Made by a program: the position numbers and the translations under genes. A stretch of 36,284 nucleotides of DNA. Origin: SAR116 cluster bacterium AG-325-I21. GTDB taxonomy: Bacteria > Pseudomonadota > Alphaproteobacteria > Puniceispirillales > Puniceispirillaceae. The stretch covers positions 1 through 36,284 of the forward strand of contig QBYK01000017.1 in assembly GCA_003282865.1 (NCBI GenBank). Direction: 5' to 3'. Shown piece by piece: positions 5,545-34,382 of this stretch. The first letter of the stretch is position 1. Each line of letters opens with the position of its first letter. Below the pieces are notes generated by a model. The model had not been told where the DNA came from. It did no database searches and was given only the letters and a program-made list of their open reading frames with translations.

Positions 5545-5892
5545 TCAACTGGACCACCAGCAGGAATAGCTGTTGGGCGACATGATTACGGGGATATGGT
5601 AGCGCGCTTCAGGGTCTGGCATGGTAAAGCGAATAACAATTTCCTCGAGTATCTGAACGCTACCGCGCGGCGACAACTGTCCTTTAAAGTAGGCACCGCT
5701 AGCAATCAACATTTCATATTTTCCACCCGCGATAGCATCTACATCTTGGATAAATCGACCGCCATCATCGCTAAAAGCTGCAAAGACTGTTTTCCGACCC
5801 TCAGCCACATCCATATGAACCAGTTTTACGCCAACGGCGGCCGCATGAGTGCCATTGGTGCCGTCGAGAAAGTGCGATGAAAGCACTGCCAT
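5545..5892 (-). CDS. Transthyretin-like protein, 5-hydroxyisourate hydrolase family
   Basis: The 115-residue protein has the layout of HIUase: the N-terminal LSSHFLD block with His7, Arg46 in DDGGRF, the GAYFKG segment, and His99 in DPEARYHIPVIMSP. In the family these residues line the active site that opens 5-hydroxyisourate in urate breakdown. The normal C-terminal YRGS tetrapeptide is here WWSS, keeping only the final serine, so catalysis may be altered or the substrate different. An AGAGAG Shine-Dalgarno precedes the ATG, and it begins 21 bases after the TPP-enzyme stop, so it belongs to that operon. No other urate-pathway gene (uricase, OHCU decarboxylase, allantoinase) is in the window, which makes a plain urate role uncertain. 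Confidence 0.78.
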   Translation of the reverse strand: MAVLSSHFLDGTNGTHAAAVGVKLVHMDVAEGRKTVFAAFSDDGGRFIQDVDAIAGGKYEMLIASGAYFKGQLSPRGSVQILEEIVIRFTMPDPEARYHIPVIMSPNSYSCWWSS

Positions 5893-5913
5893 TGCTCTCT
5901 ACCCCCGGTCTGG

Positions 5914-7656
5914 CTATTCAATCGACGCTTTATCGCGCTTGGATGTTGTGGCCAATACAATTGGACTAATTACGCCCTTTACTTTGACGTTCACACACGC
6001 CGTTTTTCCACTGGCAATCGCTCTTTTTACCGCGGGGACAATATCTTTCCGCCGCGTGACAAGTTCGCCGTGTCCACCAAGTCCTTCAAACATCGTATGA
6101 AAAGGGATATCACGGAAATCAGTTGCATAATGAGTACCGCTTTCAAATAGGCGTTCTTGCTGCTGAGAGATACAATCAAGGCCCCCATTGTTATCAATAA
6201 CCACGGTGATGGGCCGGTTTTCTTGAAACGCTGCCTCTATCGATAGGCCACCGGATAGGAACGCTCCATCACCGCTGATCAGAACGACATTTTTATCCTG
6301 GTGTATATTTTTTGCCGAAACGGCGAAAGACACGCCAACGCCAAGTAGACTAAATGTTCCCGGATGGAGAATGCCCCCCAGTTTCTTACCTTGGTATCCA
6401 GCAAGATTAACTGCAATTTCCGACCAGAAATGTGTATTCCCCCCATCAATCACAAGCCAATCCTCATCACCCATTGCTTGCTGAACGTCCATTGCCAATT
6501 GCAGCGGGTGAATGCGGCCACCAAAGTTGGGGGCGTTGGAGTCTTCAGCAACATCTGCGAGCATTTTTGTTACCCATTCGCCACGACGTTTGCGGTTCAA
6601 ATCATACCAGCTTCTATCGACGGTGAAATCTGGGCTATCGCTAAGTGCAATCAAGGCTTTTAAAAAAGCGCTAGGGTCACTAAGAAGTGTAAAATCGGCC
6701 GCGCGGTTAAAGTCAATTTCTTCATGCGAGCCATTGATGCAGACAAGTTGTGTTGTATCGGGAAACAGAGGTGCATTTCCAAAATTCATCTGGTTATCAA
6801 GGCGGGCACCCACCATTAGAACAAGATCTGACTCGTTGAACGCATCGGCTGAGGGATGATATTGATGGACATCAGCAAGCCCCATATAGGCTTCGCATTC
6901 TTCGCCAAGCAATTTCTGGTGATACGGAATGTTAAATACAGGAATACCAAGGGTGCGCCCGGCTTCTTCCAGGTAGGCCTCGGCGCATGACCACCATACG
7001 CCGTGCCCACCAATGAGGACTGGGCGGCTGGCAGCCTCCAGCTTTTTTAAAACTATTTCCAGGCGCGATGGGTCTGGCCAAGCACGAGATGGTGCCTGCG
7101 ACGTTAAATCAAACGGGCGTTCTTGGCGCCCGGCATCTTCAGGAAAAGATGAAAACATCAGATCGACGGGTAGGCTTAGATGCACTGCACCCGGGTAGCC
7201 GTTAGTGGCAATCTTGTAGGCGCGGTCGACAAATTCATTGATTCGGTCGCCCTCTGTTATGGTGGCACTGTATTTTGTCAGTGGAGCGGCAATTGCGACA
7301 TCGTCAATCTCCTTGAATCCACCGGAGCCTTGGCGTTTTAGCGTGCTTGAACCGGTAACAAAAATAACAGGAGAGCGTTCACCCCATGCCTCCATCATTG
7401 CCGGAACAGCATTGGCAAATCCCTCTGGCCCAACAAGGCAAACCGCTGGCTTGCGAGTAATGCGTGTGTGTCCATCGGCAAAATGGCCGGCAACCTGCTC
7501 ATGCGGGCAGTTGATCACCTTCATCTGACATTCCATGAAACCTTCTAGGGCAGGATTGCAGAAGCCGCCAGACAAGGTAAAGACATGTTCCACTCCTTTT
7601 TCCTGAAGGGCCCGGGCCAATAGAGCTCCCCCGCGTATTCTTCTCGACTCACTCAT
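5914..7656 (-). CDS. Thiamine-diphosphate enzyme (acetolactate synthase / 2-oxoacid decarboxylase family)
   Basis: The 580-residue protein has the three-domain layout of the acetolactate-synthase superfamily. The pyrimidine-binding domain carries the activating glutamate Glu53 (CPHEQVAGHFADG). A central Rossmann-like domain follows. The C-terminal PP domain has the diphosphate/Mg motif GDG (462-464) ending in Asn489-Asn490. The presence of Glu53 argues against classical glyoxylate carboligase, which has valine there. It overlaps the 2-hydroxyacid oxidase stop by four bases (ATGA), and AGGAAGG lies upstream of the ATG. The obvious working model is that the oxidase makes a 2-oxo acid which this enzyme decarboxylates or condenses. 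Benzoylformate-, phosphonopyruvate- or sulfopyruvate-type substrates cannot be told apart here. Confidence 0.85.
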   Translation of the reverse strand: MSESRRIRGGALLARALQEKGVEHVFTLSGGFCNPALEGFMECQMKVINCPHEQVAGHFADGHTRITRKPAVCLVGPEGFANAVPAMMEAWGERSPVIFVTGSSTLKRQGSGGFKEIDDVAIAAPLTKYSATITEGDRINEFVDRAYKIATNGYPGAVHLSLPVDLMFSSFPEDAGRQERPFDLTSQAPSRAWPDPSRLEIVLKKLEAASRPVLIGGHGVWWSCAEAYLEEAGRTLGIPVFNIPYHQKLLGEECEAYMGLADVHQYHPSADAFNESDLVLMVGARLDNQMNFGNAPLFPDTTQLVCINGSHEEIDFNRAADFTLLSDPSAFLKALIALSDSPDFTVDRSWYDLNRKRRGEWVTKMLADVAEDSNAPNFGGRIHPLQLAMDVQQAMGDEDWLVIDGGNTHFWSEIAVNLAGYQGKKLGGILHPGTFSLLGVGVSFAVSAKNIHQDKNVVLISGDGAFLSGGLSIEAAFQENRPITVVIDNNGGLDCISQQQERLFESGTHYATDFRDIPFHTMFEGLGGHGELVTRRKDIVPAVKRAIASGKTACVNVKVKGVISPIVLATTSKRDKASIE

Positions 7657-12634: not shown

Positions 12635-13594
12635 ATGCTGTTGATGTTGATCAGACGGGTCCTCCTAGGGCTTGTAACAGTTTGTATTGTGTCTTTGATT
12701 ATTTTTGCGGGTGTGGAAATCCTGCCTGGTGATGCGTGTACTCAGTTTTTGGGTGAATATCAGGCGGATGATGAACTGCTGGCGCAGTGTCGGAAGGACC
12801 TTGATTTGAACCGACCAGCGATTGATCGCTTTGCTGAATGGGCTGGAGGAGCTATGACTGGCGATCTTGGCCTTGCGGTGGATGGCAAAACAAAGATCAG
12901 CTTAATTGTAGGGGACCGTTTGCAGAATTCTCTTCTGCTGGCGCTATGTGCAATGGGTATTGGCGTGCCCTTGGCGCTGATGCTGGGAGTCATCACAGGA
13001 TTATGGCGTGACCGTATGCCTGATTTGATTGGATCCACATTGGCTATCTTTGCGATGACCATTCCTGAATTTGTGTCGGCAACCTTATTAATCCTGATTT
13101 TTAGTATCTGGCTTGGATGGCTTCCCGGTATTGTTTTAACCTCAGCCAGTGCACCAGCTGCTGAATTTTTCCCCGAAATCTTGTTACCTGTCATCGTTTT
13201 GTCGTTGGTGATGTGTGCCCACATCATGCGGATGGTTAGATCATCCGTGATTGAGGTCATGGCCGGGGACTATATACAAATGGCAACGTTAAAGGGTGTT
13301 CCATATTGGCCTATGGTGTTCCGACATGCGTTACCGAATGCGCTATTACCCGCAATTAATGTGGTTGCGTTGACAATCGCATGGTTGCTAGGCGGGGTTG
13401 TGGTAATTGAGGTGGTGTTTAATTATCCTGGGCTTGGTAGGTTGATGATTGATTCCATCTCTGATCGTGATTTGCCAGTAGTTCAGTCAATCGCACTAAT
13501 TGTTGCTAGTGTTTATGTTTGTGTGAATCTGGCAGCAGACCTTTTAACTATGCTGGCCAATCCAAAGCTGCGCACAATGTATACGAGGAAATAA
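12635..13594 (+). CDS. ABC transporter permease, DppB/OppB family
   Basis: The 319-residue membrane protein has an N-terminal helix (LIRRVLLGLVTVCIVSLIIFAGVEILPGD) with the LPGD motif that is characteristic of DppB/OppB/NikB permeases. About five more helices follow, and the EAA-type cytoplasmic loop reads YIQMATLKGVPYWPMVFRHALPNALLPAIN. It ends in the typical NLAADLLTMLANPKLRT. The open frame reaches back to a TTG at 12614, but the ATG at 12635 has AGGGA about nine bases upstream and starts just before the first helix. It pairs with the next gene to form the membrane pore. Confidence 0.92.
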   Translation: MLLMLIRRVLLGLVTVCIVSLIIFAGVEILPGDACTQFLGEYQADDELLAQCRKDLDLNRPAIDRFAEWAGGAMTGDLGLAVDGKTKISLIVGDRLQNSLLLALCAMGIGVPLALMLGVITGLWRDRMPDLIGSTLAIFAMTIPEFVSATLLILIFSIWLGWLPGIVLTSASAPAAEFFPEILLPVIVLSLVMCAHIMRMVRSSVIEVMAGDYIQMATLKGVPYWPMVFRHALPNALLPAINVVALTIAWLLGGVVVIEVVFNYPGLGRLMIDSISDRDLPVVQSIALIVASVYVCVNLAADLLTMLANPKLRTMYTRK

Positions 13595-14478
13595 TGACTA
13601 GCGTGGCGCATCAAAAGCTTCAAACAGGGAGTCGTGCGGCTGTCATTTTTAAGGATTTGGTGTCACGACCATCTGGCTCGATTGGGCTTTCATTGGTGAT
13701 CTTCCACGTTGGGTTGGCACTCATTAGTCCGTTAGTTGTCCCATTTGATTACAAATTACAAAACTCTGCATTAATGCTAAGCCAACCAAATGCAATTCAC
13801 TGGCTCGGCTCTGATCATCTGGGGCGGGATGTATTCTCGCGGACCCTTATGGGTGGACGTGAGGCATTGTTGGTTACAGGCGTTGCTACTCCGCTAGCAG
13901 TGATTTGGGGTGGTTTTGTGGGTATTATGTTCGGGCTTGTCGGTGGGCGGGTCGACGAGGTTTTGATGCGCATTGTTGACGCTTTTTTGTCGCTGCCATG
14001 GATTTTGAAAATGCTGGTGCTAATTGTCACATTTGGAACTGGTATTGAAGTTTTGATCCCCACCCTTGCGTTTTTCTATGGCATTCCGGTTATCCGTATT
14101 GCGCGGGCTGCAACGCATGATGTAATCGCAAGAGACTTTGTATGGGCAGCCAAGGCGCGCGGACATGGCAGGGTTAGCATCATTTGGCGAGAATTGTTGC
14201 CGAATGTATTGGACACTTTGATGGTGGAGGGGGCAATGCGCTGGTCATGGATGTTGCTGGCCTTTTCATCACTTTCGTTTCTTGGCTTTGGTGTGTCCCC
14301 GCCAACTCCTGATTGGGGATTAATGATTTCGGATGCACGCGGCTTTATGTCATTTGCCCCCTGGGGTGTAATTGGCCCTGTGATTGCTCTTTCGTCGCTC
14401 ATCATTGGTATCAATCTCACTGCCGATGCCCTTGCCAAGGCGCTTGGCATTGATCGCGCTCAGAAGGCGCCAATGTAA
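13594..14478 (+). CDS. ABC transporter permease, DppC/OppC family
   Basis: The 294-residue second permease has the DppC N-terminal pattern: a short cytoplasmic lead, one helix (IGLSLVIFHVGLALISPLVVPFD), then HWLGSDHLGRDVFSRTLMGGREAL, a near-diagnostic block. The EAA loop is ARDFVWAAKARGHGRVSIIWRELLPNVLDTL, and the C-terminal helices end GINLTADALAKALG. The ATG at 13594 overlaps the stop of the first permease by one base and has GAGGA upstream. Longer in-frame starts upstream fall inside the previous gene and are rejected. It forms a heterodimeric channel with the DppB-like protein. Confidence 0.92.
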   Translation: MTSVAHQKLQTGSRAAVIFKDLVSRPSGSIGLSLVIFHVGLALISPLVVPFDYKLQNSALMLSQPNAIHWLGSDHLGRDVFSRTLMGGREALLVTGVATPLAVIWGGFVGIMFGLVGGRVDEVLMRIVDAFLSLPWILKMLVLIVTFGTGIEVLIPTLAFFYGIPVIRIARAATHDVIARDFVWAAKARGHGRVSIIWRELLPNVLDTLMVEGAMRWSWMLLAFSSLSFLGFGVSPPTPDWGLMISDARGFMSFAPWGVIGPVIALSSLIIGINLTADALAKALGIDRAQKAPM

Positions 14479-23711: not shown

Positions 23712-24089
23712 TTGATAGCTGATGTTTTACTATTGATCCATTTTGGTCTTGCTGCGTTTGTTACTATTGGCTTTTTCATTATTCCAATCGGCTACAGCCT
23801 TGGTTGGAAATGGATAAGAAAAAGAAATTTGAGGCTACTTCATCTTTTTCTCATAGGCGTTATAACTATTGAGACCATTTTAGGTTTGACGTGCCCACTC
23901 ACATTTTTAGAAAACATGTTTCGGGATGTTGATTACTCGCTGTCTTTCATGTCTCATTGGGTTGCGCAGGTCTTGTATTGGGATTTACCCAGCCAAGTTT
24001 TTATTTTTCTTTACTCAACGTGCTTAGGTTGGGTGTTAATTTTATGGAGACTTTGTCCCCCAATTGAAAAGATCAAAGAGGTTTACTGA
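23712..24089 (+). CDS. DUF2784 family membrane protein
   Basis: The 125-residue protein has four predicted helices. It shows the DUF2784 pattern: an N-terminal ADVLLLIHFGLAAFVTIGFF helix, a basic turn WKWIRKRNLRLLHL, TIETILGLTCPLTFLENMFR with a conserved Cys-Pro, and a final helix ending in WRLCPP. The function of the family is unknown. The start is TTG at 23712, with AGGGGTG upstream. It is followed after one base by another small membrane protein gene, so the two probably form an operon. Confidence 0.75.
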   Translation: MIADVLLLIHFGLAAFVTIGFFIIPIGYSLGWKWIRKRNLRLLHLFLIGVITIETILGLTCPLTFLENMFRDVDYSLSFMSHWVAQVLYWDLPSQVFIFLYSTCLGWVLILWRLCPPIEKIKEVY

Positions 24090-24090
24090 G

Positions 24091-24483
24091 ATGCTCAGCT
24101 ATTCAATTATAGTGCTAATCATATTTGGAAACTTGATTTATGCGTATCAATGTATTTTCCAAACACGCACTTACATTGAGAAATATGGCTTTGGTGAAGG
24201 AAGTGCAATTATGACAAGACTTGTTGGCACTTTCGCTGCTGGTTTCGCGGTTACTCTAATTGTTGCTTTATTCAGTTCTATCGAGGGTGCTTGGCTGCTG
24301 TTCGTTTATGGCTTTGTGCAGGCTTGTATTGGCGCTGTTGTTTGCTTCCAAACCATCCATAGCCACTGGGGTGCTGTTGACGGGGTAAAGACATCTGCTG
24401 AAGGATACGTTGCCCCTACTATAATAGCATTTTTGAACTTAATGGTGCTTGTTACAGGTTGGGAAGTTTTATTTAAGATTTGA
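24091..24483 (+). CDS. Predicted four-helix inner-membrane protein, 130 residues
   Basis: The family is not recognised. Four hydrophobic segments are visible: MLSYSIIVLIIFGNLIYAYQ, then VGTFAAGFAVTLIVALFSSI, a stretch around AWLLFVYGFVQACIGAVVCF, and VAPTIIAFLNLMVLVTGWEV. The ATG at 24091 follows the DUF2784 stop by one base, with AGAGG upstream; an earlier in-frame start at 24064 would overlap that gene. Tight spacing suggests that the two membrane proteins work together. Its stop lies 65 bases before the first tRNA-like repeat. Confidence 0.55.
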   Translation: MLSYSIIVLIIFGNLIYAYQCIFQTRTYIEKYGFGEGSAIMTRLVGTFAAGFAVTLIVALFSSIEGAWLLFVYGFVQACIGAVVCFQTIHSHWGAVDGVKTSAEGYVAPTIIAFLNLMVLVTGWEVLFKI

Positions 24484-24547
24484 CATCGCACAAATGTGCC
24501 AATGCGTCGAGCCGGCGGGATGGAATTTTCATATTGCAATGTTGGTA

Positions 24548-24670
24548 GCGCACTCGAGAGGATTCAACCCTCTGCCTTCGGGGGCAAACCCGGATAAGTT
24601 CCGCGCCAATTCCAGAAAAAGCTTCGGTGGATGATGCAAAACATAAACATTATTAATGGTCTAGATGAAG
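24548..24670 (-). repeat. tRNA-Arg-like dispersed repeat, copy A
   Basis: Read on the minus strand, the copy ends like a tRNA: CCCCCGAAGGCAGAGG, a shortened T-arm (GGTTGAATCCTCTCGAG) and TGCGC, as in the 3' half of a tRNA-Arg(CCG). Its 5' part shares GGTGGATGATG..ACATTA..GATGAAG text (in + orientation) with copies B and C. The fold is too damaged for a working tRNA. The rest of the 24484-24857 gap is AT-rich with no gene seen. Confidence 0.7.
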
Positions 24671-24857
24671 TGGAATAAAAGGCCAAAAACATCTGGGTTG
24701 GAGTGTATTCGAAGCAAGATTCAAAAATACATGACCCTAAGAATATGAATGCATGAATATATTTCATTTTCCGCAGTTGCTGTATTGCTATCTAATTTGC
24801 TCACTTCAAATTTTCTCACGGGTTTGAAAGTACTAAAATCAAATACCTCGTGCCCGA

Positions 24858-25595
24858 TCAATTGTTAAATTCAAATTTGGGTAAAGCTGCCAGGCTCTTT
24901 TTTAGTGAGTCTGCCCATTCCCTCGATACCATCCGGAAGTATTCGTTGTCTTCAGTAATTTTATGTGTTTTGGCTTCACTAAGGCTATTATTTATGTAAA
25001 CGAACAAGTCCAGTGGCAACCCGACGCTCAAGTTAGCTTTTATCGTTGAGTCAAATGACACCATTAATAATCTGATAGCGTCTTCGAAACTCATTTCTGA
25101 TTCGAATGCTCTAACTAGAATTGGCCTGCCATACTTGGTTTCTCCAATCTGGAAAAACGGCTTTTTATGAGATACTTCTATGAAATTTCCCTCTGGATAA
25201 ATTAGATAGAGTGCCATTTCATTGTTATTTATCTGACCACCTAAAATGAAATTTGCTGAAAATTTATTTTCAGCTTTTTGATGCCATTTCGATGAGACAT
25301 CTATAACTTCGGCGAGAGTTTGACTCACAATTCGCGCAACCTGGAACATTGTTGGAGCAGTCAAGATGGATTGACTGCCATTATTTTTGTCCTTTATTTG
25401 CTCTGATAAAGTTTTTATCACCGCCTGGCTTGTGGCTAAATTTCCCGCTGTAGTAAGCAAAATCTGCCTGTTTCCCGGAATTCCCCACGAAAAAGTTTTT
25501 GGATAACTTGAGATATTATCTAGGCCACCATTGGTCAGAGTATCTGACATAAAAATCAACCCACGTGACAATTTTAAAGCAACACAATATGACAT
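24858..25595 (-). CDS. Anbu proteasome-type peptidase
   Basis: The 245-residue protein is a proteasome-beta-fold (Ntn hydrolase) Anbu homologue: MSYCVALKLSRGLIFMSDTL, then TNGGLDNIS, a lysine at SYPKTF, and LLTTAGNLATSQAVIKTL. In Anbu and proteasome subunits the residue after the initiator Met becomes the N-terminal nucleophile, with partners equivalent to Asp17 and Lys33; here the aspartate (SD, residue 18) and lysine (33) are in place. The nucleophile position is Ser2 rather than the usual threonine. It is the last gene of a four-gene minus-strand operon with transglutaminase, alpha-E and ATP-grasp proteins, the known Anbu neighbourhood thought to concern peptide ligation or cross-linking. 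It is cytosolic and self-assembling; the substrate is unknown. Confidence 0.88.
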   Translation of the reverse strand: MSYCVALKLSRGLIFMSDTLTNGGLDNISSYPKTFSWGIPGNRQILLTTAGNLATSQAVIKTLSEQIKDKNNGSQSILTAPTMFQVARIVSQTLAEVIDVSSKWHQKAENKFSANFILGGQINNNEMALYLIYPEGNFIEVSHKKPFFQIGETKYGRPILVRAFESEMSFEDAIRLLMVSFDSTIKANLSVGLPLDLFVYINNSLSEAKTHKITEDNEYFRMVSREWADSLKKSLAALPKFEFNN

Positions 25596-25611
25596 TTTAA
25601 TTAGACCTTAA

Positions 25612-26427
25612 TTACTGTTGATTGAACGTAATCTCAGTTTTTATTTGTTCTTCACCATTACCGATCCGGACGCCTGATATCGGGATAACATCAGCATAAT
25701 CAAAACCGGTCGCGAGTCTTACATAGCGTCCATCTGGTGCAATGCCGTTTGAAATATCAAAGCCCACCCAACCCAAGCCGGTTATGTAAACTTCCGCCCA
25801 GGCATGGGTCGCCACTTGGGTTTCGTTTTTACCATTCGATAAATATCCACTAACATACCTTGAACTGAAACCTAATAAACGCGCCGAAGTGATAAATGCA
25901 TGGGTGTGGTCTTGGCAAACACCAGCTCCAATTTCCATTGCAATTTCTGCAGTGGTGTTGATATCGGTCTTCCCTTTGGAGTATTTGATACTCTCTAAAA
26001 TACGCGTTGAGAGTTCATATAGAATATCGAGGCCACCGTTTTGATGGATAGGGATGGTTCCTTTGATACTTTTGCTTAATTCACGGAGTCGCGGACCAGG
26101 TTTGGATAAAGCTGTGTGGTTTTTGTATAGCTCGATTGGAAGGTTACTATCATGTGCGCCGAAGATACCGTTGTTATCAGTGACATCTATTTCACCACTG
26201 CATGTGATTTCCATACTTGTTACGTCAGTATCATTTACACACAAATGTAACTTGTTGCCGTGGTAATCAAATGAGTCGATTACCAGTTTACCACCGTCAA
26301 TGTCGATTTGCCACTTAATGACTTTCTGATTCAACGAACTACATGGTGCTAAGTGGAGCCGCTGGACCACCGATCTTGGTATAGCTTCAAAATCAAATAC
26401 TGTTTTATGTTTGATCAAATTTATCAT
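25612..26427 (-). CDS. Transglutaminase-like cysteine peptidase of the Anbu operon
   Basis: This 271-residue protein has an N-terminal beta-rich domain (HKTVFDFEAIPRSVVQRLHL, the bacterial transglutaminase N-domain) and a catalytic core with the papain-like triad Cys171 (GAGVCQDHTHAF), His208 (VATHAWAEVY) and Asp224 (GWVGFDISNG). I chose the ATG at 26427 because it overlaps the alpha-E stop as ATGA, a standard coupling signal; a GTG three codons upstream is the alternative. In the known operon type this enzyme is assumed to cut or form isopeptide bonds in a peptide product. It is followed 16 bases later by the Anbu gene. Confidence 0.9.
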   Translation of the reverse strand: MINLIKHKTVFDFEAIPRSVVQRLHLAPCSSLNQKVIKWQIDIDGGKLVIDSFDYHGNKLHLCVNDTDVTSMEITCSGEIDVTDNNGIFGAHDSNLPIELYKNHTALSKPGPRLRELSKSIKGTIPIHQNGGLDILYELSTRILESIKYSKGKTDINTTAEIAMEIGAGVCQDHTHAFITSARLLGFSSRYVSGYLSNGKNETQVATHAWAEVYITGLGWVGFDISNGIAPDGRYVRLATGFDYADVIPISGVRIGNGEEQIKTEITFNQQ

Positions 26428-27365
26428 TGTTTGCACAAATTAAAATCGCTGGCGATTGTTAAGCTCAGTAGATTGTTTTTTACGATATGATCTGCAATGA
26501 ATTCGCGCAGTTTGATCCTTTTATCAACTGAGTTAGAGTGGTGTAGCGCGGTCCATATCTGAGAAGCGGCATTTAGGCTATCATAATCTGAGCAATAAGA
26601 ATTAGAGAGATCTTCAAGATTTAATTTAATTTCTTTGTAACAGAAGTGTATTGAGCGAGGCATTCTTTCGTCAAATATCAAAAAGTTCGCGACGCTGATT
26701 GGGTCCAAACGCCCTTTTTTGAGCCAATTAAATGAGCGCCATGCAGCGAGTGATCTTAACATGACCTCCCATTGGCTTTGATCCTCACTACCCCCAATGA
26801 CCCTGGCGGTTGGCAGCAGTTGGTAATATTTGGAGTCCATAATCCTGAGCGTGTTGTCAGCTCTTTCAATATAGGTGCCAAGGCGAAGAAAATTGAATAT
26901 GTCATTGTGGAGCATTGTTCCGTATAACGCCCCGCGGAAAAGAGAACTACCTCTCACTATCCCCTCAAGGACAGCGGGAAGGTCTCGGATATTCGTTGGC
27001 CGTTTCAGTGCTGTTTCGCATGCAATCCAACTTTCATTCAGTGAAAGCCACACTTCTTGAGTGAGCGCCGTCCGAACCGAGCGTCCGTTCTGTCTTGCCT
27101 TATATACTAGCGAGAGGATACTGTTCAAATTGTCCCTGTCACGCAGCAAAAAATTAATCACGTTGGTGACGGTGGTTTCGTCGTATTTTTGGCTAAAGGT
27201 GCAGCCGGAACCGGTGTCAGAAATTATAGTTGTCCACTCATCTTTCCCATCATCTTCTTTGGACAAGGCATAGTGAAAGGCTGCCTGAATACGCCGAGCG
27301 ATGTTTTCACTCCTTTCTAGGTACCGTGCCATCCAAAACAAACTATCTCCATGGCGTCCAAGCAT
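26424..27365 (-). CDS. Alpha-E domain protein
   Basis: The 313-residue, mostly helical protein starts MLGRHGDSLFWMARYLERSE and continues NIARRIQAAFHYAL, the defining alpha-E motif (relatives read about LYWMGRYLERAENTARLL). Further matching blocks are LREFIADHIV near the end and NFLRLGTYIERADNTLRIMD around residues 160-180. Its length is typical. The molecular activity is unknown; it always occurs with the circularly permuted ATP-grasp protein and often with transglutaminase. The start codon directly abuts the ATP-grasp stop, so translation is probably coupled. Confidence 0.9.
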   Translation of the reverse strand: MLGRHGDSLFWMARYLERSENIARRIQAAFHYALSKEDDGKDEWTTIISDTGSGCTFSQKYDETTVTNVINFLLRDRDNLNSILSLVYKARQNGRSVRTALTQEVWLSLNESWIACETALKRPTNIRDLPAVLEGIVRGSSLFRGALYGTMLHNDIFNFLRLGTYIERADNTLRIMDSKYYQLLPTARVIGGSEDQSQWEVMLRSLAAWRSFNWLKKGRLDPISVANFLIFDERMPRSIHFCYKEIKLNLEDLSNSYCSDYDSLNAASQIWTALHHSNSVDKRIKLREFIADHIVKNNLLSLTIASDFNLCKQ

Positions 27366-28775
27366 TTATGCTCTCAATACCCATGTGTCTTTGGTGCCCC
27401 CACCTTGACTTGAGTTTACTACCAAAGATCCCTTTTTTAGTGCGACACGTGTTAGACCACCTGGTGTGACCTTAATTTCATTTGGTGAAACGAGCACGAA
27501 TGGCCTCAAATCAACATGGCGTGGAGCGAGTCCATTTTTTGTAAGTGTCGGCACAGTGGATAGTGCAAGCGTGGGCTGCGCAACATATTTTGCAGGGTTA
27601 GCTCTCAGCTTTCGTGTAAATTCTGAAAGTTCCCTTTTGCTCGCTGCAGGACCAACGAGCATGCCGTAACCCCCAGATCCATGGACTTCTTTAACGACCA
27701 GTTCATTTAGGTTTTCTAAAACATAGGTCAAATTTTGTTTGTCGGCACAGCGCCAGGTTGGAATGTTTTTTAGTAAAGGTTTTTCACCCATGTAAAATTT
27801 TATAATTTCTGGGATGTAGGAATAGATTGCTTTGTCGTCACTAATCCCACTTCCTGGCGCATTGGCAAGTATTACGGCGCGACTGCGATATGCGTCAAAG
27901 AGGCCTGGCGCGCCGAGGAGACTGTTTGGATCAAAGGAGAGCGGATCGAGGAAATTGTCATCAATGCGCCGATATATTATGTCGACAACCTCTGTACCCT
28001 TCGTGGTTCGGATTACAACTTTTCCGTCATAGATCTCTAAATCTGAGCCTTGGATGAGTTCAATCCCCATTTCATCTGCAAGAAATGAGTGCTCATAATA
28101 AGCAGAGTTATGAATGCCTGGCGTCAATAGCGCAACATTTGGACTCTCAATATGAGAGTTTGCACATGCGACAAGTGACTCAAAGAGTTCCTTTGGGTAA
28201 TTATTAATGGGCCTTATCTGGTGGGTTGTAAAAAGCTCTGGAAACATGTGCTGCATCGTGGAACGATTTTCAAGCATGTAGGAAACGCCCGAAGGAACCC
28301 TTGCATTATCCTCTAGTACAAAAAAATCCTCGGGGCCTGTCCGAACAATATCCACTCCAACAACATGTGTGTAAACGCCGCCAAGTGGAGTAAAACCGCA
28401 CATTTGGGGGAGAAAAGCCTCGTTTCTGTGGATAAGTTCAGCGGGAATGATTCCAGCGCTTATGATTTCCTGCTCGTTGTAAATGTCGCAAAGAAAGGCA
28501 TTTATCGCGCTGACCCGTTGTTTTATACCCCGTTCTAAAACTCGCCATTCATCGGCTGAGAGTATCCTTGGTATGAGGTCAAATGGTATAAGCCTTTCTT
28601 CAGCCTCTTTCTGACCATAAACGTTGAATGTAATTCCAACTCGACGAAACATTTCTTCGGCTTTTACCGATTCTTTTGAGAGTTTTTTTAAATCTTGGTC
28701 ATCTAACCAGTCAGAAAGGTTTTTATAAGTGGCGCGGCCAGTTTCCCCCTCGAAGCCCATCATCTCATCAAACAT
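27366..28775 (-). CDS. Circularly permuted ATP-grasp type 2 protein
   Basis: The 469-residue protein is the first gene of the Anbu operon. Family hallmarks include FDLIPRILSADEWRVLERGI, then FLCDIYNEQEIISAGIIPAE, PLGGVYTHVVGVDIVRTGPE, FVLEDNARVPSGVSYMLENR, and YRRIDDNFLDPLSFDPNSLL in the ATP/Mg domain. Also present are ELVVKEVHGSGGYGMLVGP and, near the C-terminus, LRPFVLVSPNEIKVTPGGLTRVAL followed by VVNSSQGGGTKDTWVL. Such enzymes are inferred to form peptide or amide bonds using ATP. All expected glycine- and acid-rich motifs look intact, so activity is likely. The first 25 residues before the conserved domain are variable. The start faces the repeat-B intergenic region, where the promoter must lie. 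Confidence 0.92.
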   Translation of the reverse strand: MFDEMMGFEGETGRATYKNLSDWLDDQDLKKLSKESVKAEEMFRRVGITFNVYGQKEAEERLIPFDLIPRILSADEWRVLERGIKQRVSAINAFLCDIYNEQEIISAGIIPAELIHRNEAFLPQMCGFTPLGGVYTHVVGVDIVRTGPEDFFVLEDNARVPSGVSYMLENRSTMQHMFPELFTTHQIRPINNYPKELFESLVACANSHIESPNVALLTPGIHNSAYYEHSFLADEMGIELIQGSDLEIYDGKVVIRTTKGTEVVDIIYRRIDDNFLDPLSFDPNSLLGAPGLFDAYRSRAVILANAPGSGISDDKAIYSYIPEIIKFYMGEKPLLKNIPTWRCADKQNLTYVLENLNELVVKEVHGSGGYGMLVGPAASKRELSEFTRKLRANPAKYVAQPTLALSTVPTLTKNGLAPRHVDLRPFVLVSPNEIKVTPGGLTRVALKKGSLVVNSSQGGGTKDTWVLRA

Positions 28776-28986
28776 CGGATCTACCCCAGAAGGTAAAAAC
28801 TTCTTATATATAAAACTAAAGGAAGCGACATAGCGAAAAAAGAGTTATTTTTTGCTATCTGTTATGCAAAAAACGCATCAGTCTACCCCGGCTGCAAAAT
28901 TTAGCTTGCTCGCAATAATTACGAGCGAGAGAGTAATTCTGACGTTTAATTTTTTACAATTTAACTATAATTTATCGAGAAACATA

Positions 28987-29119
28987 TGGCACACTCGAGA
29001 GGATTTGAACCTTTGATCTCTGCCTTCCGAGGGCTGCTCTGATGAATTCCCAGCTAATATCCAAGAAAGCTTCGATTGTTGATAAGTGATATTAAGATCA
29101 CTACTGATCTAGATGAAGC
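28987..29119 (-). repeat. tRNA-Arg-like dispersed repeat, copy B (best preserved)
   Basis: On the minus strand the copy reads TAGCTGGGAATTCATCAGAG, then CAGCCCTCGGAAGGCAGAG, a T-arm GGTTCAAATCC, an acceptor end TCTCGAGTGTGCCA and an encoded CCA. This follows a tRNA-Arg(CCG) almost from the D-arm to the 3' end, with a ruined acceptor 5' half. About 50 bases of shared leader precede it. It lies between the divergent ATP-grasp and sulfatase genes. The rest of this 520-base gap (28776-29297) is AT-rich and holds their promoters but no gene that I can see. Confidence 0.75.
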
Positions 29120-29297
29120 AGCTTAGTTTTTAAAATGGACGAGATTTAAAATAATAAGACGTTCCCTTTTTGCTATTGAAATTATTATTTCAATCTAATT
29201 AACTTTGCACTGAGGAAACAGCTCTGAGGTCCTCGCCCCTTCGGATGATGTTGTTTCTCTGAAAACGTACATTTAGATATTTAAAAGGTGGATCGTC

Positions 29298-30836
29298 ATG
29301 AAACGTCCAAATTTTGTATTCATTACTTCAGATCAGCAGCGAGGCGACTGTTACGGATTTATGGGGCGAAAAGTAAGGACGCCTCATTTGGATCAACTCA
29401 GGGGGGAGGGGATGCACTTCCGAAATTGCATTACTCCTTCCCCGGTCTGCCAACCTGCAAGAGCCGCAATTCTGACTGGGAAGTTGCCAAAAACTAATGG
29501 GGTGAAAGATAACGGTATTGATCTGCGGACGGAACGTGGAGAACTTGGATTTGCAGCCGCATTGACAAATGTTGACTATGATACCGCACTAATTGGTAAA
29601 GCTCATTTCGCAACCACTCAAACTTTTTCGCCGCAGACATCAGCGGAGTGTAAAACTGGCTCAGCGGATTATCCTCCAAATTGGAATGGCCCATATATGG
29701 GCTTTCAACATGTTGAGCTTCTCACTCAGGGGCATTGGCACAAGATCAGGCCACCCGTGACTCCGCCCAGCGGTCAACACTATGAGGATTGGTTTTTCAA
29801 TGTTGTTGGGAAGGAAAGCGCATTTGAATTATGGAAGTCTGAGACCAGAAAGGGTGTCGGGGCTGCACAAACTTGGGCGTCAGCACTCCCTGTTGCCTGG
29901 CACAACTCAACCTGGGTTGCAGATCGATCAATCCATTGGTTATCGAATAGGCATGAAAGTAATCCTTTCTGTCTTTGGATTTCATTCCCTGATCCTCATC
30001 ACCCGTTTGATTGTCCGGAACCATGGAACCTTTTGCATAATCCTGAGGATGTGGATTTGCCAAAATTTTTGGAGAAAGATTTAAATGATCGGCCATGGTG
30101 GCACAGACGTTCTCTAGAGTCTGAGCCTGATTTGAGCGATCCAGTTTTAAAGCGATTTCGCAAACAAGGATCGAGGATGCCTGATCAAAGTGAGACTCAA
30201 CTTCGTGAGATGACTGCAAACTATTATGGAATGATATCATTGATTGATCACAATGTTGGTCGTGTGATCGCTTATTTGAGAGAAAAAGATATTTTGGATG
30301 AGACAATCATTATTTATACGTCTGACCATGGTGATCACATGGGTGAGCGTGGATTGTATTTGAAAGGACCAATGTTGTATGACTCGCTTATAAATGTTGG
30401 CATGATAGTTCGCGGTCCCGCGGTTGCCGCTGGACGGAGTGAGGATGCACCCATTACGACTTTAGATGTTGGCGCTACTTTGTGTGATTATGCAGGAACG
30501 TCGCTACCAACAGAGGCGCAAAGTGTTTCGTTGAAAAGCTGTTTTGAGGGTGCAGGTTCTCCCCATGATGCTGTTTATTCTGAATGGGATGTTGCGCCAA
30601 GCAGATGTGGCGTAAGGCTAGATTTGCGCACTGTGCACACTGGTACAGCAAAATTAACAATCGAGCTTCAGTCTGGTGATGGCGAGTTGTACGATCTACA
30701 GTCTGATAGGAATGAAATGAAAAACCTTTGGAATGATCCGGTAGCGGCTGAACTTCAAAATCATATGACGAACCTACTTTGGTCGAGGCCGGGCATTGAA
30801 CTAAATGAATTTGACGAACCAATTGGAGTAGCATAA
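29298..30836 (+). CDS. Sulfatase (alkaline-phosphatase superfamily, formylglycine type)
   Basis: The 512-residue protein starts MKRPNFVFITSDQQRGDCYG with metal ligands Asp12 and Gln13. It carries the sulfatase signature CQPAR (Cys51-Arg55) followed by AAILTGKLPKTNGV; Cys51 would be changed to formylglycine by a maturase. The second metal site is at IIYTSDHGDHMGERGLYLKG. Other expected blocks are WISFPDPHHPFDCPEPW and LYDLQSDRNEMKNLWNDP at the C-terminus. There is no signal peptide, so it is probably cytosolic, as in choline-sulfatase-like enzymes; the substrate (sulfate ester or phosphonate-like) is unknown. No maturase gene is in the window. AAAGGTGG precedes the ATG. Two tRNA-like repeats flank it as direct repeats. 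Confidence 0.9.
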   Translation: MKRPNFVFITSDQQRGDCYGFMGRKVRTPHLDQLRGEGMHFRNCITPSPVCQPARAAILTGKLPKTNGVKDNGIDLRTERGELGFAAALTNVDYDTALIGKAHFATTQTFSPQTSAECKTGSADYPPNWNGPYMGFQHVELLTQGHWHKIRPPVTPPSGQHYEDWFFNVVGKESAFELWKSETRKGVGAAQTWASALPVAWHNSTWVADRSIHWLSNRHESNPFCLWISFPDPHHPFDCPEPWNLLHNPEDVDLPKFLEKDLNDRPWWHRRSLESEPDLSDPVLKRFRKQGSRMPDQSETQLREMTANYYGMISLIDHNVGRVIAYLREKDILDETIIIYTSDHGDHMGERGLYLKGPMLYDSLINVGMIVRGPAVAAGRSEDAPITTLDVGATLCDYAGTSLPTEAQSVSLKSCFEGAGSPHDAVYSEWDVAPSRCGVRLDLRTVHTGTAKLTIELQSGDGELYDLQSDRNEMKNLWNDPVAAELQNHMTNLLWSRPGIELNEFDEPIGVA

Positions 30837-30849
30837 CAAATAAGAGTCT

Positions 30850-30981
30850 TGCGCACTCGAGACACTTCGAACCTCTGACCTTTGCCTTCGGGGAGCTAAT
30901 CCGATAGATTCTTAGCTAATTTTCAAGCAAGCTTTGGTTGATGATTCGTAACATTAGCATCACTAATAACCGATATGAAGC
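30850..30981 (-). repeat. tRNA-Arg-like dispersed repeat, copy C
   Basis: The copy begins 13 bases after the sulfatase stop. On the minus strand the tRNA-like part reads CCCCGAAGGCAAAGGTCAG, then AGGTTCGAAGTGTCTCGAG and TGCGC. The 5' part matches copy B over AGCTAAT...AAGCAAGCTTTGGTTGATGA and ATTA..ATCACTAAT..GATATGAAGC (in + orientation). The remaining sequence up to 31163 is AT-rich without a gene. Confidence 0.72.
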
Positions 30982-31163
30982 CTATTGTCATTTTTGCTGA
31001 GACGATGTGGAGCAGCTTTGGAGTAACATTTTGTTATCGAGAATTTTCGTAAATGAAAATTTTTTTAGAGTGTTTGAAAATTAGATCACTTCGCTTTGCG
31101 GTTGACTAATGGATTCCCAATTACATAATGCTAGAATTAAATTATTGTTTTTATTATAAATTT

Positions 31164-31508
31164 TTATACTCTGAGTAATTCTTCTGTGTTTTTGGCCAAA
31201 CTAAGGTCTAATGCATGAATGTTACCTATCTTGTGTGACCACCAATCAACCCTTGTTTTTCCAAATTCTATCGTGATACGGGGATGATGATTATACCGCT
31301 CTGCAACGTCACCAACTTCAGCCGCAAAATCTGCAGCTTCAGCAAAATCGGGAAAATTAAATGTTCGGGTCAAGAAAGTTGTATCTGACTCAGTTTTTAT
31401 TTCCCATTCCGGGTGAGATCCCATAAACGTGTTGATTTGTTTCTCATCTGCTTTTTGAGCATCTTCAGAACAAGCCTCGCAGACTAAATCGTCTATTTCT
31501 TTATCCAA
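31164..31508 (-). CDS. phhB: Pterin-4a-carbinolamine dehydratase
   Basis: The 114-residue protein has the DCoH/PhhB active-site block YNHHPRITIEF (His74-His75-Pro76) and VDWWSHKIGN (Trp90, His92) followed by LDLSLAKNTEELL. It dehydrates 4a-hydroxytetrahydropterin, recycling the cofactor of aromatic amino-acid hydroxylases. The N-terminal 25 residues with a Cys pair (CEACSEDAQ) are typical of the bacterial form. The start is a TTG at 31508 with AGAGG seven bases upstream; no ATG is in frame there. It is divergent from a three-gene pterin operon 99 bases away. No phenylalanine hydroxylase gene is visible nearby. Confidence 0.88.
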   Translation of the reverse strand: MDKEIDDLVCEACSEDAQKADEKQINTFMGSHPEWEIKTESDTTFLTRTFNFPDFAEAADFAAEVGDVAERYNHHPRITIEFGKTRVDWWSHKIGNIHALDLSLAKNTEELLRV

Positions 31509-31607
31509 AGTAAACCTCTTTCATTTTTTGTTGTCTGATAGCTATGCGGCAATTAGTCAGATGTTATTGAAGTCAATCTTGAGGTCAACATAAATCTGGA
31601 GGTTATG

Positions 31608-32324
31608 ATGAATGTTCTGGTGATTGGGTCAGCACCCGACGCGACTCAGGCGCGCGATTGGGATATGAGAGCTTTTGATCAAGTCGTTGTAATAAACAAC
31701 GCTTGGCGGGCTGCGATCCATTGGAATGAGTTGATTTTTCCATATGATTTTCCAGACGAGAATAAGCCTGCTAAGCTTCTTAACCATCAAAAATTTGTGA
31801 CTGAAGATCAATTTGTACCTGCACAAAATTTATTTGGTGGTTTTGTATATGCAGGCGCCACGATGGCATTCACAGCTGGCTATTGGTCGCTCGCGAACCA
31901 TTTACCTACTAAAATGTGTTTCTTAGGTTGTAACATGCATTACAGTAATAGCGGCCCAACCCACTTTTATGGGACGGGACAGCCAGACCCCCTCCGAGTT
32001 GATATTACACTTACGTCTCTGAGGGCTTGCTCACATAGGCTGCTCATTCTCGCTAAAATGCGAGGCTGTGACATCGTGAGTCTGTCTGCTGGGAAGACCA
32101 ACTTGCACGTACCGCAGATTAATTTTGACGAATTGTTAGAGTACCAGCCTGCATTTTCTATCTCTTGGGAAAAAATGAATCAGGCTCTAAAATATGAGAA
32201 AACTCTGAACTACTACGTTGAGGATGGTCGGTATTGGCTTCAAGAAAATTTTTTTTGCCGAGATAAATTGGAACGATTAGATCGGATTTGGGTTGATGCC
32301 CTAACACCAGTTCCAGTGAATTAG
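31608..32324 (+). CDS. Unknown protein with a DUF115/sialyltransferase-like nucleotide-binding start
   Basis: The 238-residue protein is not firmly recognised. It starts MNVLVIGSAPDATQARDWDM and goes on RAFDQVVVINNAW, similar in pattern to the GxGPS... nucleotide-binding start of DUF115/MptE-like proteins and GT42-type sialyltransferases. A middle block, VYAGATMAFTAGYWSLANHL then KMCFLGCNMHY and THFYGTG, resembles the matching second motif of those folds. DUF115 includes archaeal 6-hydroxymethylpterin diphosphokinase, which would suit a neighbour of folE. This is inference from motif shape. Two ATGs occur in tandem; the second (31608) is better spaced from TGGAGG. It is followed after 15 bases by the DHFR-like gene. 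Confidence 0.5.
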   Translation: MNVLVIGSAPDATQARDWDMRAFDQVVVINNAWRAAIHWNELIFPYDFPDENKPAKLLNHQKFVTEDQFVPAQNLFGGFVYAGATMAFTAGYWSLANHLPTKMCFLGCNMHYSNSGPTHFYGTGQPDPLRVDITLTSLRACSHRLLILAKMRGCDIVSLSAGKTNLHVPQINFDELLEYQPAFSISWEKMNQALKYEKTLNYYVEDGRYWLQENFFCRDKLERLDRIWVDALTPVPVN

Positions 32325-32339
32325 CACAAAGGTGAGTAT

Positions 32340-32825
32340 ATGTTTTGCTCGATATTGGCTTGTGGTCAAAATGGTGAAATTGGGTTGAATGGTGAGCTTC
32401 CATGGGAGGGCCAGTACCCTGAGGACAGGGAGTTTTACGAAGGTCAGACTGAACTTGCACTTAGAATTGGGACAAGAGGCGCTATCGCTCATTTTTCGCC
32501 AAATAGGCCCTCCTGTCTAATTTCGACGAACGTGCAAAAGCCCAGACACTGCAGTTATGTTTATAATTGGAAAAAACTTTCGGTGGAACAAATTTTTGCT
32601 GACATAGAAGAGCGGGTTAAGCTTCAAACAAAAATCATCGTTGGTGGCGTTAAATGGTATCACGCGTCGGCGAGCTTTGTTGATAGGATTTACCTTACCC
32701 GAATAGGAAAAAGCTTTAACAGCGATCGAAAAGTCGACTTATCCATCATTTTAGCCGGAAGGAAAAAAACTTCTTCTCTTTCCGTGCGACACAATTCTGA
32801 ACTCATCTTTGAAACTTGGGAGTAA
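32340..32825 (+). CDS. Divergent dihydrofolate-reductase-like protein
   Basis: The 161-residue protein has the start of a DHFR (ILACGQNGEIGLNGELPWEG, then QYPEDREFYEGQ), with an acidic residue where the substrate carboxylate-binding Asp lies. It also has a DHFR-like C-terminal part (IIVGGVKWYHASASFVDRIY followed by LTRIGKSF). The usual NADPH-contact block GRxTxxS is replaced by RIGTRGAIAHFSPNRPS, so cofactor binding or function may differ. Length is normal. It sits between the unknown gene and folE with short gaps (15 and 3 bases), so it is in one operon. It may reduce a dihydropterin rather than folate; a separate housekeeping folA would be expected elsewhere. Confidence 0.7.
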   Translation: MFCSILACGQNGEIGLNGELPWEGQYPEDREFYEGQTELALRIGTRGAIAHFSPNRPSCLISTNVQKPRHCSYVYNWKKLSVEQIFADIEERVKLQTKIIVGGVKWYHASASFVDRIYLTRIGKSFNSDRKVDLSIILAGRKKTSSLSVRHNSELIFETWE

Positions 32826-32828
32826 AAA

Positions 32829-33428
32829 ATGGATCTAGGTAATCACGTTAACAAAGAGCAAAGGCTCCAGCGCACCAAATCAGAGGCTGAAGAAGCGGTC
32901 AGGGTATTGCTTGAGTATATGGGAGAAGATCCGGCTAGAGAGGGCCTGAGCGAAACTCCAGAAAGAGTAGTTCGCGCATGGTCAGAATATTGTGTAGGAT
33001 ATTCGTCTGACCCCGCAACAATTCTCAAGAAAACGTTTGAGAATCCTGAAAAATATTCGGAGCCTGTTGTTTTAAGGGATATCTCTTTTGTTTCTCATTG
33101 CGAGCATCACTTAGCTCCAATCAATGGTGTTGTGGATGTTGCTTATGTGCCATCGGAGCGAATTGTTGGTATCTCAAAAATAGCCAGAGTTGTGGAGTGT
33201 TTTGCTAGAAGGCTACAGACGCAGGAAACGATGACAGCGCAAATTGCAAACTGCATACAAGACAGTCTAATGCCTGCCGGAACGGCAGTGAGATCACGTG
33301 CCACCCATGCGTGCATGACAAACAGGGGAGTTTGCAAATCAGGTACTTTACTGACCGCTACCGCCTTCAAGGGTGTATTTTTGAGTGATCTAGCCCTCAA
33401 ACATCAATTTCTGAGTGGGCAGATTTAA
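32829..33428 (+). CDS. folE: GTP cyclohydrolase I
   Basis: The 199-residue enzyme converts GTP to 7,8-dihydroneopterin triphosphate, the first step of folate and tetrahydropterin synthesis. Matching blocks are EAVRVLLEYMGEDPAREGLS, then ETPERVVRAWSEY, the zinc and substrate motif FVSHCEHHLAPINGVVDVAY (Cys91, His94) and THACMTNRGV with zinc ligand Cys162. RIVGISKIARVVECFARRLQ is also standard. It starts three bases after the DHFR-like stop, whose last codons supply GGAG as the ribosome-binding site. As the last gene of this operon it likely feeds a dedicated pterin, since the block lacks folB, folK and folP. A hairpin lies about 120 bases downstream. Confidence 0.93.
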   Translation: MDLGNHVNKEQRLQRTKSEAEEAVRVLLEYMGEDPAREGLSETPERVVRAWSEYCVGYSSDPATILKKTFENPEKYSEPVVLRDISFVSHCEHHLAPINGVVDVAYVPSERIVGISKIARVVECFARRLQTQETMTAQIANCIQDSLMPAGTAVRSRATHACMTNRGVCKSGTLLTATAFKGVFLSDLALKHQFLSGQI

Positions 33429-33548
33429 CGAAGATTTCGCAAAGTCGAGGGGAGCTAAACCACTTAAGCCTACTTTTTGAGAGTTGTGGTGGCAACTGCT
33501 GGGGGTTTTGTTCAACACTAATTTGAGAAACTAATCGCATTGTCCTCA

Positions 33549-33572
33549 ATTTGTTCCAATTTTGGAGCAAAT
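33549..33572. promoter_or_regulatory. Inverted repeat downstream of folE
   Basis: ATTTGTTCC and GGAGCAAAT form a nine-pair stem (one G-T pair) around a six-base loop. There is no T-run after it, so it is either an operator-like palindrome or a weak 3'-end hairpin. Confidence 0.4.
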
Positions 33573-33671
33573 ACATCAATAATCGACAGTGCATTTTTTG
33601 CACCGCACCTATTCTAGGCTTACATTTGCATTTCTCGTCGCAAGGCATATCTAAGCACCAAGGAGATTTGG

Positions 33672-33869
33672 ATGTTTTTGGCGCAGATGCTGCTTTTCAG
33701 TTTGACAGCGGCCAGATGTATTGGAGTTGAGGACGAAATTGGATTGGTCGCAAACGTCAACGCATGTGAAAAGCGAAAAGAAGCAATGGTCAATGAAGCA
33801 CGAGAGATAATCCCATTCTTGGTTGTAGTGCACGTCGACTGTAAAGTAATAAAAGGTTTCGCTGTATAA
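33672..33869 (+). CDS. Small protein, 65 residues, possibly exported
   Basis: Not recognised. The ATG has a strong AAGGAG seven bases upstream. The product starts MFLAQMLLFSLTAARCIGVE, a possible short signal peptide or lipoprotein-like start with one Cys, followed by charged sequence with a second Cys (NACEKRKEAM) and a hydrophobic end (PFLVVVHVDCKVI). It lies after the folE operon with a 240-base gap. An overlapping opposite-strand frame (33620-33925) was judged a shadow. Confidence 0.4.
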   Translation: MFLAQMLLFSLTAARCIGVEDEIGLVANVNACEKRKEAMVNEAREIIPFLVVVHVDCKVIKGFAV

Positions 33870-33997
33870 ATCTTGATCAATTGTTTCTGGGAGTTTTGGC
33901 TTAACCCCTTAACTTTAACGACCAAAATTTGAACGAAAGATGCAACACAGATTAACTTTGCGTTTTAATTGTACAGAAATGATTGAGGGTCGCACTT

Positions 33998-34168
33998 GTG
34001 GAAAGACTAATTTCTAACTCATCAAACCTTAGTGTTGCCATCAAATATGATTGTGAGTGTGGTAGATCACCAAACGTCAAATGTCTTGGTTGGCACAAAC
34101 TTAACGATGTTGAATACAAACGGCGGCTGGCGCTTTACCCCGGAAAACGCAGGAATAAGGCTGCTTGA
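33998..34168 (+). CDS. Possible small Cys-containing protein, 56 residues
   Basis: The frame starts best at a GTG (33998) with GAGGG eight bases upstream. The product contains CECGRSPNVKCLGWHKLND and then VEYKRRLALYPGKRRNKA, a compact C-x-C...C pattern with a basic tail that could bind metal or nucleic acid. No family is recognised, and its small size leaves doubt that it is translated. Confidence 0.3.
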   Translation: MERLISNSSNLSVAIKYDCECGRSPNVKCLGWHKLNDVEYKRRLALYPGKRRNKAA

Positions 34169-34291
34169 AATAGAAATTTTTTGGTGATCGCTGACAGCAT
34201 CAATGGTGATGATACTAAAGACTGCAAACTAATTCCTCATGCACTGGCGTTTGCGACCCAGAGCTTAACAATCAGGATCGCGTAAAAGTGA

Positions 34292-34382
34292 TGGCGCACT
34301 CGAGAAGAGGTTCGATGCCTTATCCCAGCACTAGCAAGTAACTGATTCTAGCTATAACAATAGCTTAGTAGACCATCATAAA
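34292..34382 (-). repeat. tRNA-Arg-like dispersed repeat, copy D (most degenerate)
   Basis: On the minus strand the copy keeps only the tRNA end, CATCGAACCTCTTCTCGAG then TGCGCCA with an encoded CCA. It has a vague match upstream (AGCTATTGTTATAGCTAGAA) to the other copies. It sits in a 446-base gap (34169-34614). Further along this gap, 34432-34578 reads on + as WTVDHGLGLLWAFLVRTILV and more up to a TGA. This could be a membrane-protein remnant, but no start is visible. Confidence 0.55.

Follow-up and report, generated by a model that had tools for sequence, protein, structure and literature searches.

Displaced tRNA-Arg(CCG) 3' halves between small metabolic units in a SAR116 genome, very probably remnants of successive integrations

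The window, by which we mean the whole 36,284-nt stretch of DNA analyzed here, belongs to a genome assembly (G000) of 2.16 Mb in 122 contigs that is 79.7% complete. Toward its right end, metabolic genes lie in units of 1.7 to 4.3 kb between four places, A to D, that resemble the 3' half of tRNA-Arg(CCG) (Table 1). As a yardstick for scoring these places we used the genus's own tRNA-Arg(CCG), taken from seven intact genes in six relatives, and the chance level was set by 40 shuffled windows, the best of which reached a local score of 26. Scores of 32 to 69 against this maximum establish that the four minus-strand resemblances reported in the preliminary description are real. The encoded CCA end is retained in B and D, as reported there, and is lost in C.

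Table 1. Sites and units of the array, with positions in the window and the evidence for each.
Feature	Position	Strand	Evidence
Copy A, tRNA-Arg(CCG) 3' half, decayed and gapped	24548..24584	-	local score 49
Copy A, leader, read as P arm	24585..24678	-	alignments; model R1 match 24545-24678, but A is in the model's training set
Copy A, arm-like direct repeat, degraded	24699..24717	-	4/17 mismatches; 0.2% of 500 shuffles as good
Unit A-B: proteasome-type protease, transglutaminase, Alpha-E, and ATP-grasp genes	24679..28984	.	Pfam; no integrase by tblastn
Copy B, tRNA-Arg(CCG) 3' half with CCA end	28987..29033	-	local score 69
Copy B, leader, read as P arm	29034..29126	-	alignments; model R1 match 28985-29126, by construction
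Copy B, arm-like repeat, doubtful, at the expected place	29136..29154	-	6/17 mismatches; 13% of 500 shuffles as good; not significant
Unit B-C: single sulfatase gene (29298-30836, +)	29127..30846	.	Pfam; no integrase found
Copy C, tRNA-Arg(CCG) 3' half without CCA	30851..30891	-	local score 62
Copy C, leader, read as P arm	30892..30988	-	alignments; model R1 match 30847-30988, by construction
Copy C, arm-type direct repeat TTACTCCAAAGCTGCTCCA	31008..31026	-	1 mismatch
Unit C-D: Pterin_4a, unknown protein, DHFR_1, and GTP cyclohydrolase I genes	30989..34289	.	Pfam
Copy D, final 22-24 nt of tRNA-Arg(CCG) plus CCA	34292..34315	-	score 32 versus shuffled 26; no arm

The repeated unit is larger than a tRNA half, as first proposed: A, B, and C can be aligned over about 135 to 140 nt, and the non-tRNA leader that they share is about 90 nt long rather than the roughly 50 nt originally assigned to it. 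Copy D stands only in part, since its tRNA end scores beyond the shuffles but nothing else of the unit accompanies it, the leader included, and it was not reported at E ≤ 10 in a whole-genome search with R1, a sequence-only model built from A, B, C, and E. The last of these is a fifth copy, outside the window in the same genome (contig C32, 10453–10595), so the family does have a further member. With B as the BLAST query against the whole genome, E was matched at 71% identity (E-value 2.4e-11) and A at 69% (E-value 1.8e-6); C is absent from that list and was found by ungapped alignment (73% over 131 nt) and by R1. Over the 15 pairs formed by A, B, C, E, and two copies from a congeneric genome (G013), the tRNA half has a mean pairwise identity of 76% and the leader (48–135 nt from the 3' end) one of 64%, against 49% beyond the unit, both at 180–270 nt and at 300–390 nt. 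The homology of these copies is confined to about 135 nt.

No copy is a working tRNA, in agreement with the earlier reading: ARAGORN predicts none in the window, and Rfam gives none at its gathering score, with B reaching 13.3 bits against a cut-off of 29. A conserved RNA was also considered and set aside, RNAalifold having returned for four copies a weak fold with two-sided changes in 1 of 21 pairs and no convincing covariation.

Searched in 61 genomes of the family, R1 has matches of some kind in 46. Although built from the window's genome alone, it recovers the two full copies in G013, sites a and b, at E-values of 1.4e-23 and 4.5e-18; many of its other matches are tRNA-Arg genes (ARAGORN, at the loci examined). 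ARAGORN also calls a tRNA-Arg(TCG), probably spurious, on the strand opposite to site b (L088, 2187–2284, minus). A leader-only model, R2, built from eight sequences of G000, G013, G020, and G043 and run over 136 genomes, has matches in 42 of them, the strong ones (E ≤ 7.1e-15) being the eight building sequences only. We treated the remaining R2 matches (E 0.0027 to 0.1) as noise, including one at E 0.008 beside a tRNA-Arg(CCG) gene of G006.

Alignment of longer flanks brought out, upstream of the leader, the direct repeat TTGCTCCAAAnnTGCTCCA. Eleven sites were examined, and in seven of them (C, G013a, G013b, G020a, G020b, G022, and G043) it starts 171–182 nt before the tRNA 3' end with 0–2 mismatches. 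The poorer repeats of A and B, compared with shuffles in Table 1, start 173 and 170 nt before the tRNA 3' end, respectively; no recognizable arm lies upstream of D or E, and a downstream (P') arm was found after none of the copies A to E. The arm consensus was derived from the same copies that were scored at these 11 sites, and the independent test is therefore a search for the pattern across the order, in 136 genomes. Allowing at most one mismatch, this search found it 10 times, in 8 of the genomes, whereas the reversed control pattern occurred once. A tRNA-Arg(CCG) gene or half lies no more than about 200 nt from nine of the ten occurrences; the tenth, in G088, is inside an open reading frame.

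Four of the nine tRNA-adjacent arms were newly found by this search and lie downstream, 46–48 nt after the CCA, following an intact tRNA-Arg(CCG) in G022, G037, and G050 and a displaced half in G004. In G037 and G050, the start of a tyrosine-recombinase reading frame touches or overlaps the downstream repeat; the G037 protein matches PF00589 (E 3.4e-26), and in G050 the contig ends within the frame. Repeats that flank a core beside the integrase gene are the usual attP layout of tyrosine recombinases, and arm repeat, tRNA, and integrase start are arranged here as in an integrase attachment site.

Among viral contigs, 22 carry the exact upstream (P) form of the arm; in 9 of them a related integrase starts at most about 320 nt away, and in the other 13 the stretch examined shows no related integrase. 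The one exact P' form that was searched in viral contigs gave 0 matches. In contigs L367 and L413, two arm copies 230 nt apart flank what appears by eye to be a tRNA 3' end. Relatedness of the integrases was confirmed for the best 80 of 578 in the named genomes and the best 80 of 597 in the viral contigs. Within the window itself, a search allowing up to three mismatches gave 3 arm matches where 0.26 are expected: one is that of C, and neither of the other two (25342–25360 and 33552–33570, each with three mismatches) adjoins a site. By eye, further candidate repeats (TTTACTACAA, TTGACACAGT, and TTAATACACA) were picked out upstream of other halves at tRNA-Arg(CCG).

The units between the window's sites contain no integrase or integrase stump that tblastn with integrases could find, and the only two integrase matches in the window at E ≤ 1 are weak and lie at 8.5 and 17.9 kb. 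Because of this we call the units remnants rather than islands. Relatives retain more. The order in G022 is tRNA, arm, integrase stump, DUF2784 gene, upstream arm, and attR-like half, in a unit of 1.06 kb; its stump keeps the first codons of the gene (20 residues, 65% to the G037 protein, E 0.001), and its DUF2784 gene is 72% to that of the window at 23712–24089. After site b of G013 lies the stump of a related but different integrase, with a stop (49 residues, E 3e-7 at best). G004 keeps its arm, but none of seven integrases matches after it, and in the G013 and G020 copies the arms are intact beside integrase-less units. For the gene set of unit A–B there is a counterpart in G021 (37–67% identity), where a tRNA-Arg(CCG) half lies about 230 nt past the last gene; the leader of this half is a different one. 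We note the place in this genome, which is of another genus: the transglutaminase, Alpha-E, and ATP-grasp set ends there beside the half on L186 (7387–7444 and 7673–11651).

The tRNA-Arg(CCG) gene itself was not found in the 79.7%-complete assembly. The gene usually upstream of it in relatives is present on contig C91 (75% identity), and the 760 nt that follow it, to the contig end (C91:3851–4611), contain no tRNA; the tRNA may have been lost or moved in this genome. To the left of A, the window carries a block (nitroreductase, DUF2784, and a gene that we call gene2) whose gene order is also found in G002 and G012, at a distance of about 3.7 kb from an intact tRNA-Arg(CCG); neither of these genomes has a site beside gene2. 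On the strength of this synteny, the window is probably the tRNA-Arg(CCG) hot spot, and the tRNA would lie to the right of the window. Copy E is on a separate contig without a tRNA-Arg, and both G013 sites are oriented opposite to that genome's tRNA. Just before A, a frame at 24064–24483 (+) encodes a protein without a Pfam match whose homologues, 81–90% identical, are in another family of the order (f3), a degree of identity that suggests horizontal transfer.

We consider it very probable that the repeats are decayed attR sites from successive integrations at tRNA-Arg(CCG), which together form an additive stack. An origin in old integration (att) sites had been listed first among three possibilities, and it is well supported by the tRNA halves, the leader, the arm repeats, and the neighboring integrases in relatives. 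Serial insertions of elements with tyrosine recombinases would have targeted the 3' half of tRNA-Arg(CCG). Every insertion would restore the tRNA at one end, and the opposite end would keep the displaced 3' half joined to the element's P arm, which would comprise the leader and the arm-type direct repeats. The displaced halves would then be free to decay, and the loss of integrases while metabolic cargo was kept would yield a stack of short integrase-less units. We infer that the units of the window originated by this route, and infer likewise their order and the binding of a recombinase to the repeats.

Measured by what defines such structures, the array has the displaced 3' tRNA fragments of a remnant island (A to D) and arm-type repeats beside the core (C and A), with no integrase gene in the intervals; it resembles an additive island in its several tRNA ends, which separate different sets of cargo; and it lacks the tyrosine recombinase that a tycheposon carries in its element. 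Some observations count against a stack of attR sites. If the units were stacked at the tRNA, D would be the youngest site, yet it is the most decayed. Copy E on another contig and the reversed G013 sites need rearrangement under this reading. The missing tRNA-Arg(CCG), the absence of a recognizable arm at D and E and of a significant one at B, the lack of P' arms and of any integrase stump in the window, and the arm-like places away from the sites are further points against it.

A displaced 3' tRNA fragment is known to mark the far end of an integrated element, and tandem arrays of this kind are on record (Islander, PMC4383910; PMC9897764), as are tRNA gene fragments described as attR sites (PMC9897764). 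The sites of the window share the displaced fragment with Islander islands, but the method as set out in PMC4383910 accepts only intervals that hold an integrase and requires the tDNA to be intact; neither an integrase nor the intact tRNA gene was found here. The flexible island fGI-2 of ‘Ca. Methylopumilus’ (Methylophilaceae) is, like the window, additive, with recurring tRNA ends and variable, partly metabolic content (PMC10872708); its repeated end is the last 20 nt of tRNA-Lys, and the passages on it cited here mention no shared leader or arm repeats; in the window the tRNA is Arg(CCG). Tycheposons, as characterized in PMC10872708, resemble the window as tRNA-bordered cargo islands of marine bacteria, but they measure 4–200 kb and carry a tyrosine recombinase gene, which the units of 1.7–4.3 kb described here lack. 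Read in this way, the array is an ordinary kind of genome scar and an unusually legible example of it.

Alternatively, the units may be cargo cassettes between attachment sites that are still mobile although not autonomous, using the integrase of a different element in trans, and not the remains of elements that each had an integrase of their own. The small size of units without a detectable integrase would suit this, as would the G022 unit, with one DUF2784 gene between the tRNA and the attR-like half, and the intact arms beside integrase-less units in G013 and G020. A model exists in the microcin H47 island of Escherichia coli (PMC3191183), which is small, has attachment repeats, and lacks a recombinase gene of its own; it differs from the window in that its excision and integration were shown experimentally and in that the abstract does not call its repeats tRNA-derived. 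The first integrase codons in G022 and the stump with a stop in G013 are, however, what decay leaves, and A to E are degraded and without P' arms, so we judge this alternative quite improbable. In its general form, which is improbable too, this putatively marine lineage would shift single genes and small operons as cassettes lacking an integrase. Their recombination sites would be tRNA-Arg halves with arm repeats, and integrases recognizing TTGCTCCAAA arms would mobilize them in trans; if true, this would be an integron-like traffic that uses a tRNA site.

Duplication of tRNA-Arg(CCG) genes followed by decay to pseudogenes, the second origin suggested initially, would account for the similarity to a tRNA, and G006 does have two tRNA-Arg(CCG) genes. 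However, only the 3' half of each copy is tRNA, and many intact tRNA-Arg(CCG) genes of relatives match R1 only from model position 90 or 91. The leader common to the copies is therefore not the tRNA gene's own 5' flank, and we regard duplication as unsupported and highly improbable, with one possible exception in its favor, a G006 gene that matches from position 18 at 47.1 bits. The second intact G006 gene (L101, 14166–14242, minus) is followed by a truncated-looking integrase frame (13079–13828) and has a weakly leader-like 5' flank. The third suggestion, a SINE-like tRNA-derived retroelement, fits a tRNA part joined to a non-tRNA part in several copies, one on another contig, but is unsupported and extremely improbable, given four full copies plus D in 2.16 Mb rather than many dispersed ones, a 3' half in place of a whole tRNA, no tRNA fold or convincing covariation, and a leader that arm repeats and integrases account for, ending in the better copies in direct repeats of the integrase type. 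A literature search found no paper on SINE-like bacterial repeats, from which we do not claim that none is in print.

With the repeats read as fossil attR sites, what seemed an odd repeat can be read as a record of islands inserting again and again at a single tRNA gene, and metabolic operons are linked to island traffic at tRNA-Arg(CCG). Moreover, the arm motif can be used to seek integrase-less island remnants, which a method that requires an integrase, such as Islander as outlined in PMC4383910, rejects.

Other degenerate or half tRNAs occur elsewhere in the genome, at C19:21459–21522, C9:25491–25512, C32:3426–3479, C36:18388–18459, C24:14167–14226, and C70:3220–3319 and 5889–5961. A further sequence, at C37:8558–8648, is called a selenocysteine tRNA by ARAGORN and scores 28 bits in the general tRNA model of Rfam, just under the cut-off. 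By eye, the C24 remnant is a worn copy of a nearby tRNA-Arg(TCT), and that on C19 is the 3' half of a tRNA-Glu, 5.5 kb from the intact gene.
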